Positions 28,210-32,578 of a stretch of 64,000 nucleotides of DNA are shown here, piece after piece. Position numbers and translations under genes: made by a program. Below the pieces are notes generated by a model. The model ran no database searches, was not told where the DNA came from, and saw only the letters and a list, made by a program, of their open reading frames with translations. Every line of letters begins with the position of its first letter. The first letter of the stretch is position 1. The stretch is taken from NCBI GenBank assembly GCA_016185245.1, contig JACPNZ010000009.1:124001-188000 (forward strand), given 5' to 3'. Source of the DNA: Hyphomicrobiales bacterium (GTDB lineage Bacteria > Pseudomonadota > Alphaproteobacteria > Rhizobiales > Aestuariivirgaceae).

Positions 28210-28596
28210 ATGGACGATCTGGTCGCCGCCGCCAGGGCGGCCCGCCTGAAGGCGCACGCGCCCTACTCGAAATTCCTTGTCGGGGCGGCGGTGCGCGACG
28301 AACGGGGCCGGGTGTTCGGCGGCTGCAATGTCGAGAACGCCGCCTATCCGCAGGGCTGGTGCGCCGAGACCTCGGCGATCGCCGCCCTGGTGATGGCCGG
28401 CGGCCGGAAGATCACCGAGGTGGCGGTCGTCGGCGACGGCCTCGTCACCCCCTGCGGCGGCTGTCGCCAGAAGATCCGCGAATTCGCCAGCCCGGATGTC
28501 AAGATCCACGTCTGCGGCGAGGACGGTGCCATCCGCCGCAGCTTCACCCTCGACGAACTCCTGCCCTTCTCCTTCGGCCCGGAGCATTTACGATAG
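28210..28596 (+). CDS. cdd: Cytidine deaminase
   Basis: 128 residues, the homotetrameric small form. It deaminates cytidine and deoxycytidine to uridine and deoxyuridine. The zinc site is C51, C82 and C85 (GWCAETSA and PCGGCRQ) with catalytic E53. NVENAAYPQG is the conserved substrate loop. It lies immediately after the importer. Its stop is only four bases before the -35 element of the toxin-antitoxin-like module. Confidence 0.95.
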   Translation: MDDLVAAARAARLKAHAPYSKFLVGAAVRDERGRVFGGCNVENAAYPQGWCAETSAIAALVMAGGRKITEVAVVGDGLVTPCGGCRQKIREFASPDVKIHVCGEDGAIRRSFTLDELLPFSFGPEHLR

Positions 28597-28599
28597 ATC

Positions 28600-28628
28600 T
28601 TGCGGAATATACGAATATTCTGTAATAT
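28600..28628 (+). promoter_or_regulatory. Promoter with palindromic operator for the toxin-antitoxin-like module
   Basis: TTGCGG (28600-28605), a 17-base spacer and TAATAT (28623-28628) form a good sigma-70 promoter. A perfect inverted repeat, GAATAT-ACGA-ATATTC (28605-28620), fills the spacer, the position expected for an autoregulatory antitoxin operator. The stretch is far more AT-rich than its surroundings. Confidence 0.72.
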
Positions 28629-28652
28629 GCGGAAAATGCGTATAGGTGTCCA

Positions 28653-28898
28653 ATGAAAACATTTTCCACCGCCGAACTGGCCCGCAAGGTCGGGGATGTC
28701 ACTCACGCCGCTTCGAAGGCGCCCATCGCCATTACCCAGCACAGGAAGCCCCGTTACGTGCTGATGAGTTTCGAGACTTTCCAGCGGTTGAATCCCCAGC
28801 GGGCCTACAGCGTCGAAGACACGCCCGATGAAGTGGCGGAGTGGCTCCTGCCGGGCCTGGATCGCATTGCCGCCGGCGACTTCGACGATGAGGAATGA
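28653..28898 (+). CDS. Phd/YefM-family antitoxin
   Basis: 81 residues. The N-terminal DNA-binding part (TFSTAELARKVGDVTHAASK, ITQHRKPRYVLMSFETFQRL) has the Phd/YefM arrangement: a short AELARK helix, then a beta-hairpin with the QHRKPRYVLMS motif. The acidic tail (VAEWLLPGLDRIAAGDFDDEE) would wrap the toxin. It is preceded by its own promoter and palindrome and overlaps the next gene by 11 bases, the usual coupling in toxin-antitoxin pairs. It interrupts the nucleoside salvage operon. Confidence 0.82.
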   Translation: MKTFSTAELARKVGDVTHAASKAPIAITQHRKPRYVLMSFETFQRLNPQRAYSVEDTPDEVAEWLLPGLDRIAAGDFDDEE

Positions 28899-29304
28899 AT
28901 CACATCCGGAAGGAACCGTTCTAAAATACCCCTACCTTTGGCTGCATCAGTCGGCTCTGCCCGAATTCGTCCCGAAGGACCGCGCAGCTTGCTTGATTAT
29001 GAAGATGAAAGGGCTGACAAAAACCCACGTGGTTATCCTGGCAATCAGCGACATGGGCGACAGCGCGAGCGGCACTTGCATCGAGATCCCCGATACCGAA
29101 AAGCGCCGGGCGGGATTGAGTGAGTTTCGCCCAGCCTATGTTCATCTCGCCGAATACAACGTCGATCAAACGCCCGACTCTCTTTACTATAATCCCGCAG
29201 CAGGACCTTTGGGGCGATTCAGCAGGCCCTTCATCACCCAAGTCGCACACGCGCTTCTGACTAACCTTCGCAACAGGCGCGCTGTCCGTATCGATCGCCA
29301 ATGA
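28888..29304 (+). CDS. Putative toxin partner, PemK-like in alphaproteobacteria
   Basis: About 138 residues from ATG 28888; no signal peptide or membrane segment. Visible blocks are LKYPYLWLHQ, a beta-rich middle (HVVILAISDMGDSASG), EIPDTEKRRAGLSEF, HLAEYNVDQTPDSLYY and GRFSRPFITQVAHALL. This pattern recalls alphaproteobacterial proteins annotated as growth inhibitor PemK-like or hypothetical, but that memory was not checked. Its position directly after a Phd-like antitoxin, with an 11-base overlap, is the main evidence for a toxin role. It could instead be an unrelated conserved protein. Visibly less GC-rich than the flanking salvage genes. Confidence 0.6.
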   Translation: MRNESHPEGTVLKYPYLWLHQSALPEFVPKDRAACLIMKMKGLTKTHVVILAISDMGDSASGTCIEIPDTEKRRAGLSEFRPAYVHLAEYNVDQTPDSLYYNPAAGPLGRFSRPFITQVAHALLTNLRNRRAVRIDRQ

Positions 29305-29315
29305 GCGCACTGTAG

Positions 29316-30098
29316 ATGAACCACTTGAAACTCCGCCTCGGCCGCCGCGCTCCGAAGACCGCCATCATCCTCGGCTCGAGCCTTGGGCCGGTGGCCGCGG
29401 CGGTCGGCGATCCGCTGATTATTCCGTATACTGATCTTCCCGATTTCCCGGTGCCGCGGGTTTCGGGCCATGCCGGGCGGATCGTCGTCGGCCGGCTCGG
29501 CGGCGCCGAGGTCGCGGTGCTGCAGGGCCGGGCCCATCCTTACGAAAGCGGCAATGCGGCGGTGATGCGGCCGGCCATCGAAATGCTGAAAGGTGCGGGG
29601 ATCGAGACCCTCATCCTCACCAATGCGGCGGGTTCGCTCAAGCCCGCCATCCGGGCGGGCTCGCTCATGCTGATCACCGACCACATCAACTATTCCGGCA
29701 TGAACCCGCTGATCGGCCAGCATGGCGATGAAAACTTCGTGTCCCTGACCGATGCCTACGACCCGGCTCTGCGCAAGCGTTTCATCGCCGCCGCCCGGGC
29801 CGAGGATATTGCGCTTGAGCAGGGCGTCTATGTGTGGTTTTCCGGCCCGTCCTTCGAAACGCCGGCCGAAATCCGCATGTTCCAGATGATCGGTGCCGCC
29901 GCCGTCGGCATGTCGACGGTGCCGGAGACCATCATCGCCCGCCGCCTCGGCCTCAAGGTTGCCGGCCTCTCGGTCATCACCAATCTCGCCGCCGGCATCG
30001 AGGGCGCCAATCCGAGCCACGAAGAGACCAAGAGCGAGGGCGCCAAGGCCGTCGGCCACATGAAACGGCTGCTGGCCCGCTACTTTGCAGGTACCTGA
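29316..30098 (+). CDS. Purine nucleoside phosphorylase (trimeric, class I)
   Basis: 260 residues. It phosphorolyses inosine and guanosine to base and ribose-1-phosphate. The phosphate loop is [10 protein letters not shown] (usually GSGLG), with [35 protein letters not shown], the central [13 protein letters not shown] signature and [12 protein letters not shown]. Only about 13 residues precede the first conserved strand, some 15 fewer than in XapA-like relatives. It begins 12 bases after the putative toxin, so the insertion may have clipped the original N terminus. Confidence 0.93.
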
Positions 30099-30099
30099 C

Positions 30100-31407
30100 A
30101 TGCTGGCGCAGGAGCTGATCCGCCGGAAGCGCGATGGCGGCAGTCTCTCCCGCGACGAGGTCGGCGGTTTCATCCGTGGACTGACGGATGGAACGATATC
30201 GGAAGGCCAGGTGGCGGCCTTCGCCATGGCGGTCTTCTTCCGCGGCATGGGACCGGAAGAAGCGGTGGGTCTGACGCTGGCCATGCGCGATAGCGGCACG
30301 GTTCTGCAATGGGACCTCCCCGGTCCGGTCGCCGACAAGCATTCGACCGGCGGCATCGGCGACAATGTGTCCCTCATGCTGGCGCCGATGCTGGCGGCCT
30401 GCGGGCTCTACGTGCCGATGATCTCCGGCCGGGGCCTGGGCCACACCGGCGGCACCCTCGACAAGCTCGACTCGATTCCGGGTTATCGTACGCAACCCGA
30501 CCTCGACCTGTTCCGTAGAGCGGTGCGCCAGGCTGGCTGCGCCATCATCGGCCAGACCGCCGATCTGGCTCCCGCCGACCGGCGCTTCTACGGCATCCGC
30601 GATGTCACCGCCACGGTCGAAAGCGTGCCGCTGATCACCGCCTCGATCCTGTCGAAGAAGCTCGCCGCCGGCCTCGGCTATCTGGTGCTCGACGCGAAAA
30701 CCGGCAACGGCGCCTTCATGGAGACGGAAGCCAAGGCGCGCGAGCTGGCGCAGTCGCTGGTCAGTGTCGCCAATGGTGCGGGCCTTGCGACCACCGCCCT
30801 CATCACCGACATGGACGAGCCGCTCGCTTCCTGCGCCGGCAACGCGCTTGAAGTGAAGAGCGCCGCGGACTTCCTGCTTAACGCCCGCGCCGACCGCCGG
30901 CTCATGGATGTCACATTGGCGCTCGGTGCCGAGCTTCTGGTGAGCGCCAAGGTCGCGGTCACGACCGAGGATGCCACGACGCGGCTGCAGCGGTCGCTCT
31001 CCTCCGGTGCCGCCGCCGAACGCTTCGACCGCATGGTGGCGCTGCTCGGCGGTCCCAAAGATTTCCTGGGCCATGCCGGCAGCCACCTCGGGGCTGCCCC
31101 GCTCGTCCGGCCGGTCCATGCCGACGACACCGGCATCGTCTCGTCGATCGCCACGCGCGATCTCGGTCTCGCCGTCATCGAGCTCGGCGGCGGCCGGCGC
31201 ATCGCCACGGATAAGATCGACCACCGGGTCGGCTTGTCCCACCTCCTGGGCAAGGGCCAGCGCGCCGACGGCGAAACGCCGCTCTGCCTCGTCCATGCGG
31301 CCGACGATGCCTCCTTCGCCCGGGCCGCCGCCCTGGTGAAGGCCTCTTACCGTCTCGGCGATCCGCCGCCGGTAACTCCCGCCGTCATCGCCCGCATCGG
31401 TTCCTGA
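30100..31407 (+). CDS. deoA: Thymidine phosphorylase DeoA
   Basis: 435 residues. It converts thymidine or deoxyuridine and phosphate to base and deoxyribose-1-phosphate. The glycosyltransferase-3 fold shows [12 protein letters not shown], the signature region [12 protein letters not shown] and [20 protein letters not shown]. The start ATG 30100 is two bases after the PNP stop; an in-frame ATG 15 bases earlier lies inside PNP. Next to deoB it channels pentose-phosphates to glycolysis. Confidence 0.96.
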
Positions 31408-31408
31408 C

Positions 31409-32578
31409 ATGGCCCGCGCCATTCTCTTCGTCCTCGACAGTTGCGGCATCGGCGGAGCTCCCGATGCGGCGAAGTTCGGCGATGAGGGCGCCAACACGCT
31501 CCTCCACATCGCCGAGCGGATGACACTGAAGCTCCCCAACCTGTCGGCGCTCGGACTCGGGCTGGCCATAGAAGCGGTGTCGGGCCGCAATCCGCTGGCG
31601 CCCACGGTCCTCAAGGGGCAATGGGGCCACGCCCGCGAGGTTTCCAACGGCAAGGACACCATCACCGGCCATTGGGAGATCGCCGGCGTGCCGGTGCCGT
31701 TCGACTGGGGCTATCTTCCCCACACCATTCCGGCCTTCCCGGCGGATTTCACCGAGGCGCTGATCGCCCGCTGCGGCCTTCCCGGCCTCCTCGCCCTGAG
31801 ACATGCTTCCGGCACGGCGGTGATCGAGGACTATGGCGAAGAGCATCTCGCGAGCGGCAAGCCGATCGTCTACACTAGCGCCGACTCGGTCATTCAGATC
31901 GCCGCCCACGAGGAAAGCTTCGGCCTGCAGCGCCTCTATGAGGTGTGCCAGGTGGCGCGCGAACTTTCCTATCCCATGAACATCGGCCGGGTCATCGCCC
32001 GGCCCTTCGTCGGAACCGTGGCTGCCGACTTCACCCGCACCGGCAACCGCAAGGACTACGCCGTGTTGCCGCCGTCGCCGACGCTCCTCGATTGCTTGAC
32101 CTCGGCCGGTCGCGCCGTCGTCTCGGTCGGCAAGATCGGCGACATCTTCGCCCATTCCGGCACCGGCCGCGAAATCAAGGTCGCCGGCCACGAGGCGCTG
32201 ATGCAGGCCTCGCTGGAAGCCATCGAGGCCTTGCCCGACGACGGCCTGGTGATGACCAACTTCGTCGATTTCGACACCAACTTCGGCCACCGCCGCGATG
32301 CCACAGGCTATGGCCGGGCGCTGGAGCGTTTCGATGCGATGCTGCCCATGGTCTTCGACCGCCTGCGGCCGGGCGATCTTCTCATTCTCACCGCCGATCA
32401 CGGCAACGATCCGACCTGGCAGGGCACCGATCACACCCGCGAGCAGGTTCCCATCCTGGGTTTTGGCCCGGGCCTCAAGCCGCGAGCGCTTGGCGCCCGC
32501 GCCAGCTTCGCCGACATCGGCCAAAGCCTCGCCCGCCACCTTGGCATCGTGCCACTAGCTTCGGGCAAGGCCTGGTAA
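31409..32578 (+). CDS. deoB: Phosphopentomutase DeoB
   Basis: 389 residues, alkaline-phosphatase superfamily. It interconverts (deoxy)ribose-1- and 5-phosphates made by the two upstream phosphorylases. Metal and catalytic regions are [10 protein letters not shown] at the start, [10 protein letters not shown] (catalytic Thr region), [14 protein letters not shown] and [10 protein letters not shown] with TDHTREQVP. One base separates it from deoA. It appears to end the salvage operon; deoC is not in the window. Confidence 0.96.

Follow-up and report, generated by a model that had tools for sequence, protein, structure and literature searches.

A probable MazF-PHD toxin-antitoxin module between cdd and the purine nucleoside phosphorylase gene of an alphaproteobacterial salvage operon

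A pair of small genes separates the cytidine deaminase gene (cdd) from the purine nucleoside phosphorylase gene (PNP) in a nucleoside uptake and salvage operon of a Hyphomicrobiales bacterium (GenBank assembly GCA_016185245.1, contig JACPNZ010000009.1). We consider it very probable that the pair is a MazF-PHD (SMa0917) module, a toxin-antitoxin system of type II in which a Phd/YefM antitoxin binding 9-bp sites is joined to a toxin of the MazF/Kid fold that likely cuts RNA, and that the module was inserted at the cdd-PNP junction and is co-transcribed with the operon. The whole stretch of DNA that was analysed, called the window here, is 64,000 nucleotides long (positions 124,001 to 188,000 of the contig, forward strand), and its relevant features are collected in Table 1.

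The operon opens with an ABC uptake system (PnrA-like binding protein, ATPase, and two permeases), which is followed by cdd and PNP and then by the deoA- and deoB-like genes, the last of which (31409..32578) we take to be deoB from gene order. cdd and PNP are kept apart by 28597-29315, which holds the antitoxin and toxin genes; these two overlap by 11 bases, and PNP starts 11 bases past the toxin stop. An earlier note on this DNA had described the same arrangement, with the cdd stop ending at 28596, a Phd/YefM-like gene, a 138-residue gene overlapping it by 11 bases, and PNP resuming after it, and all of this was borne out by reading the sequence, in which PNP starts at 29316. The mechanical open reading frame of the toxin begins at 28828, and the family alignment favours the ATG at 28888.

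Table 1 Features of the module and its neighbours, in window positions
Feature	Position	Strand	Basis
cdd, cytidine deaminase, upstream neighbour	28210..28596	+	PF00383 E 9.4e-16
Array of five 9-bp units, likely (candidate) antitoxin operator	28599..28643	+	9-bp register vs shuffles, family-wide period
Palindrome with perfect 6-bp arms, inside the array	28605..28620	.	Present in sequence; within chance by shuffling
Phd/YefM-type antitoxin, 81 aa	28653..28898	+	PF02604 27.7 bits; predicted fold
MazF/Kid-fold toxin (predicted), SMa0917 (MazF-PHD) family, 138 aa	28888..29304	+	AlphaFold2 model, VIA-align, HHalign
Purine nucleoside phosphorylase (PNP), downstream neighbour	29316..30098	+	PF01048 E 1.8e-50
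Pyrimidine nucleoside phosphorylase (deoA-like)	30100..31407	+	PF00591, PF02885, PF07831
Phosphopentomutase-like (deoB, presumed name) metalloenzyme	31409..32578	+	PF01676 E 2.4e-39

The two proteins and their family

The antitoxin scored 27.7 bits (E 2.4e-6) against Pfam PF02604 (PhdYeFM), just below the cut-off of 29.8, and all 16 of the aligned family antitoxins matched this model at E 0.01 or better. Its AlphaFold2 model (pLDDT 84) aligned with the prevent-host-death protein 2odk at Z 8.4 (1.6 A over 50 residues) and with P1 Phd at Z 7.1, and the top Foldseek rows were Phd/YefM-type antitoxins, with a best E of 1.2e-3. By this model the protein is predicted to have the Phd/YefM N-terminal DNA-binding fold. 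Elsewhere the same genome carries a canonical PF02452 MazF (L137, G000:C2:141951-142265) and four further Phd/YefM matches.

The earlier note had taken the second gene for the toxin, and had proposed profile searches and structure prediction as checks. By profile search, the 138-residue protein had no match to any Pfam, NCBIfam, or PADLOC model, and against PF02452 it had none up to E 1, nor up to E 10, while 4 of 15 relatives matched PF02452 weakly (best E 0.0031). A sequence search against solved structures gave nothing useful, and the weak rows returned by the profile were the chloroplast RNA polymerase subunit PAP4. The AlphaFold2 model of the toxin, made from 35 sequences, had a pLDDT of 83 and a pTM of 0.80, and its best VIA-align match was MazF (Z 9.7, 3.4 A over 109 residues), but a best Z of 7-8 is typical for unmatched models according to the tool, and the 8-10 of the toxin is only modestly higher. 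The 50 entries listed (Z 9.7-7.8) were titled MazF, Kid, or toxins or endoribonucleases that were taken here as MazF. The MazF-like reading of the fold draws independent support from HHalign, in which the toxin family gave 90.9% and 81.8% over 106 columns with PF02452 members from related genomes, and the controls against the antitoxin gave 0.4% and 0.8%.

Members of the MazF/PemK superfamily have a conserved catalytic Arg and Thr/Ser. In the profile alignment Arg32 of the toxin pairs with the RP-motif Arg of MazF, and 92 of 95 members have it, among them the window, where Ala replaces the Pro that comes next; Ser/Thr54 is shared by 94 of the 95, again with the window, but is shifted by one column in the alignment with MazF. 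From predicted fold and profile comparison together, the protein appears to have the MazF/Kid fold and profile-level homology to the MazF/PemK superfamily. Both models came out as a toxin-antitoxin pair would predict, Phd/YefM-like for the first protein and MazF/Kid-like for the second. The toxin shares with MazF/Kid/PemK (PF02452) the predicted fold, the profile-level homology, and a conserved Arg, and differs from them in falling below Pfam detection, in its greater length (138 aa), and in having a Phd/YefM partner instead of MazE/PemI. The best Foldseek match of the model, and the sole one under 1e-3, was the type III toxin CptN (4rmo, E 9.9e-4); CptN/ToxN systems have an RNA antitoxin, whereas the window has a protein antitoxin gene.

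At E 1e-5, 312 plasmid records contained relatives of the toxin, none of them reaching 60% identity, while phage records had no match. A scan of genome contigs with the single window protein found no relative, and those in genome contigs were found with an 8-row alignment profile; there was also one locus on a viral contig. For the comparison of loci, 15 plasmid loci were chosen for diversity from the 312 records and the best 80 of 110 genome loci were kept. Relatives carrying the second gene without any antitoxin, which the earlier note had named as evidence against its reading, were looked for and not found: the antitoxin lay directly upstream of the toxin on the same strand in 105 of 106 loci (a set in which the window is counted, some loci are nearly identical, and one appears twice, as L003 and L030), and the sole exception, L073, has its start 19 bases from the edge of its contig. 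The antitoxin was also upstream in four further loci from a survey of Aestuariivirgaceae-family genomes. The two predicted folds and this near-constant pairing support the earlier claim of a toxin-antitoxin module.

The position in the operon would also suit an unrelated nucleoside salvage enzyme standing beside a stray antitoxin. But no homologue of cdd, PNP, deoA, or the permease was found within the fetched flanks of the 108 other module loci, and the family is spread over plasmids; this candidate was dropped on the predicted MazF/Kid-like fold and the constant antitoxin pairing, and we find it scarcely credible. A nuclease unrelated to toxins was likewise tried as a candidate and dropped on the same predicted fold and pairing.

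The available text of Makarova et al. 2009 (PMC2701414) predicts a family of alphaproteobacterial toxins, with SMa0917 of pSymA as its type, which adjoins PHD antitoxins, is distantly related to PemK/MazF, and is enriched on plasmids (12 plasmid and 7 chromosomal cases). The window module is very probably of this already predicted SMa0917/MazF-PHD kind: a toxin lies beside a PHD antitoxin in an alphaproteobacterium, it is predicted to belong to the MazF/PemK superfamily, and the family is plasmid-enriched. The window copy differs in being divergent and embedded in a chromosomal operon, and the 9-bp operator array described below has no mention in the available text of that paper. Our family profile had exactly one match in the 1,354,226 bases of Sinorhizobium meliloti 1021 pSymA, the home of SMa0917, and we infer that this match is SMa0917. 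The match (L188/L189, near 509,950-510,280) has in-frame stops, and the antitoxin match there is split over two open reading frames; in this strain the copy presumed to be the type member may be defective. Another damaged copy was seen on Roseomonas mucosa pTT14-3 (L011, 1501-1922), where the toxin is frameshifted and the antitoxin intact, and the related plasmid locus L025 has an intact pair. No experiments on the SMa0917/MazF-PHD family were found in the literature searched, which took in few subscription journals.

The region upstream of the antitoxin gene

The earlier note had placed a promoter just after cdd, with a perfect palindrome filling its spacer as operator. Both hexamers are there (TTGCGG at 28600-28605 and TAATAT at 28623-28628, spacer 17), but together they agree with the sigma-70 consensus in 7 of 12 bases by our count and were unlisted by our scanner, which requires 9 of 12; no strong promoter came to light. 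A promoter-like site that does reach 9/12 lies at 28899-28927, just past the antitoxin stop and inside the toxin gene. The palindrome, GAATATACGAATATTC, is likewise present at 28605-28620 with perfect 6-bp arms, but it is not beyond chance, since a perfect arm of at least 6 arises in 174 of 2000 dinucleotide shuffles of the A+T-rich 56-bp gap between cdd and the antitoxin gene. The exact 16-mer pattern of the palindrome is unique in the window by a test that was chosen after the pattern was seen. What can be kept of the palindromic operator is that the palindrome is part of a repeat array, and this 9-bp array is the better supported element.

The array consists of five units, CTTGCGGAA TATACGAAT ATTCTGTAA TATGCGGAA AATGCGTAT (28599-28643), whose column agreement in the 9-bp register was 0.73, against 0.52 in shuffles, and none of 500 shuffles reached it; by the same test, period 10 was reached by 41 of 500 shuffles and period 8 by 120 of 500. 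By weaker measures the window array is faint, with a lag-9 z of its own of 2.0 and no row in Tandem Repeats Finder, so the case for it comes from the period of the whole family. In 51 non-redundant 70-bp upstream regions, which were selected from 104 by an 8-mer overlap filter and then compared with shuffles, the lag-9 identity was 0.393 against 0.257 (z 17.2), and lag 18 gave z 11.4. Lag 9 was the strongest among lags 5-15 in 42 of the 51. The letters of the unit vary by branch, for example ATGGAAAAT-like in rhizobial plasmids and TTTTACGTA in the relative G004. In that genome a tandem array of 16.4 copies of 9 bp lies between cdd and the antitoxin gene (L002, 2159-2306) and is apparently an expanded operator; without it the family lag-9 z was still 16.1.

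As a control we used 14 other Phd/YefM operators, which remained from 32 loci after the removal of 2 of this family, 10 whose antitoxin matched no better than E 0.01, and 6 with no match. Their lag-9 identity was 0.285 (z 2.1), lag 8 gave z 3.4, and lag 9 came top in 3 of 14; the difference between family and control at lag 9 was reached in 0 of 20000 permutations. Lag 9 is slightly raised in the control operators too, which means that the 9-bp period may not be exclusive to the MazF-PHD family. From these comparisons, the array at 28599-28643 is likely the antitoxin operator, and we treat it as a candidate.

By analogy with YefM-YoeB and Phd-Doc, a Phd/YefM-type antitoxin is expected on repeated sites over its own promoter. 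In the available text of the sources, the operator of E. coli yefM-yoeB consists of two palindromes whose centres are 12 bp apart (PMC4803016), and two adjacent palindromes are engaged in P1-type Phd-Doc and one by E. faecalis Phd (PMC13034048), whereas the candidate sites of the window family repeat every 9 bp in rows. A closer likeness in layout is found in the omega regulator of epsilon-zeta, whose operator, as given in the available text of PMC4803016, is an array of short repeats (heptads) bound cooperatively; however, omega is an unrelated ribbon-helix-helix regulator and its units are of 7 bp, not 9 bp. We found no 9-bp Phd/YefM operators in the literature searched, in which subscription journals were few.

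Insertion at the cdd-PNP junction

Among 37 genomes of the genus, the cdd-PNP junction was covered in 32 (G008, G013, G014, G025, and G030 being left out). The module sits exactly at this junction in 3 of the 32, those of the window, G004, and G026. Of the other 29 junctions, which lack the module, 28 have cdd and PNP at most 38 bases apart by alignment, mostly with an ATGA overlap. This empty site in relatives supports the earlier claim of an insertion into the salvage operon, for which a comparison of the junction had been suggested. The one remaining junction, that of G003 (L126), has a different insert of 548 unrelated bases, read as an opposite-strand open reading frame for a secreted-type protein, and the toxin copy that G003 does have is on another contig. 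The site is also empty in three close relatives of G004 and G026 (G016, G009, and G023).

The window, G004, and G026 modules group as a single clade both by toxin (support 0.963) and by antitoxin (0.984), and by these trees they have a single origin at the site. The tree of permease and cdd put the window with the G004 clade (support 97; species-like placement AU p 0.026), the RpoB tree, with sequences gathered by homology, placed it with the G034 clade (grouping with the G004 clade, AU p 0.0012), and the PNP and deoA tree gave no decision (AU p 0.315); the clades for these AU tests were named after the trees were seen. This hints that the module was exchanged together with its upstream flank.

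Such exchange would suit a selfish addiction module that landed by chance in a permissive operon junction and has no role in salvage, and we give this explanation an even chance. It is favoured by the frequency of the family on plasmids, by its presence in only 9 of 69 genomes in the survey of the bacterial family, and by the lack of salvage homologues near the 108 other loci, besides the suggestion of the trees that the flank moved with the module. But one clade of modules occupies the same site in three species, which means that it was retained or re-acquired there, and both the naming of the clades after the fact and the undecided PNP and deoA tree weaken the point about the flank.

Divergence of the toxin and possible control of the operon

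Among the three modules at the junction, the pairwise toxin identities are 0.49, 0.38, and 0.32, and the corresponding antitoxin identities are 0.70, 0.63, and 0.74, while 498 other family pairs with antitoxin identity of 0.58-0.74 have a mean toxin identity of 0.61 and only 2 of them are at or below 0.50; these comparisons cover 95 members, without the frameshifted L011 and identical toxins, and the pairs are not independent. Between G004 and G026, RpoB is 96.9% identical and PNP and cdd are 87-89% identical, against 32% for the toxin. With a profile built without the window, the three toxins scored 86.5, 94.6, and 111.7, which were the lowest, second lowest, and fifth lowest of the 95 (median 189.2). 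Across 27 representatives, 26 columns reach 80% conservation or more; at these the window toxin departs 4 times, G004 7 times, and G026 8 times, and the representatives themselves 0-6 times. The window toxin differs at the near-constant positions G25P, P33A, P58D, and W84Y, and for that reason its activity may be weak or lost. None of the three toxin frames is broken, and change between the window and G004 toxins at codon positions 1, 2, and 3 was 0.43, 0.35, and 0.68, a constraint that is weaker in the toxin than in the antitoxin. This pattern fits relaxed or diversifying evolution of the toxin at the cdd-PNP site, two courses that the data do not separate.

Fast divergence of this kind would be seen if the module had been domesticated, with the antitoxin and the 9-bp array retained inside the operon as a self-regulated promoter or brake that acts on PNP, deoA, and deoB, and the toxin mostly unconstrained and non-toxic. 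The low toxin identities, the low profile scores, the case of G004 and G026, and the growth of the array in G004 all speak for it; however, the frames are unbroken, the third codon position changes more than the first two, neither Arg32 nor Ser54 has been lost, the compared pairs are not independent, and the 4 departures of the window are within the range of other members, so we regard domestication as rather unlikely. Divergence with intact frames would also be expected if positive selection were diversifying the toxin, for instance to escape an inhibitor or to shift its RNA target, but the sequences are too distant for a sound rate test and the toxin is absent from phage records, and this explanation seems very unlikely to us.

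Under the MazF-PHD reading that we prefer, the module would have entered the junction where cdd and PNP of the genus normally overlap, and it would be transcribed with the operon. The antitoxin would repress the module by binding the 9-bp sites that lie in a row across its own promoter, and its C-terminal part would mask the toxin, most likely an RNA-cutting protein of the MazF/Kid fold. When the antitoxin level falls, the toxin would cut RNA and the module promoter would open, and the opened promoter would also raise transcription into PNP, deoA, and deoB. Toxicity and autorepression are expected here from the gene order, with its 11-base gap to PNP, and from what is known of such modules, and on the same grounds control of PNP, deoA, and deoB is plausible. 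A larger claim is that a plasmid-type MazF-PHD module was captured as internal control of the salvage operon, so that the antitoxin on a growing 9-bp array sets PNP, deoA, and deoB, the toxin drifts to loss, and the operator geometry is new for Phd/YefM across the family; we hold this to be distinctly unlikely.

By this analysis, a predicted toxin family gains a predicted fold and a constant partner, together with a candidate operator that is well defined. The three copies embedded in the operon are a natural case for the fate of a toxin-antitoxin pair locked in a metabolic operon, and the 9-bp array is a direct test case for how Phd/YefM antitoxins assemble on repeated sites.
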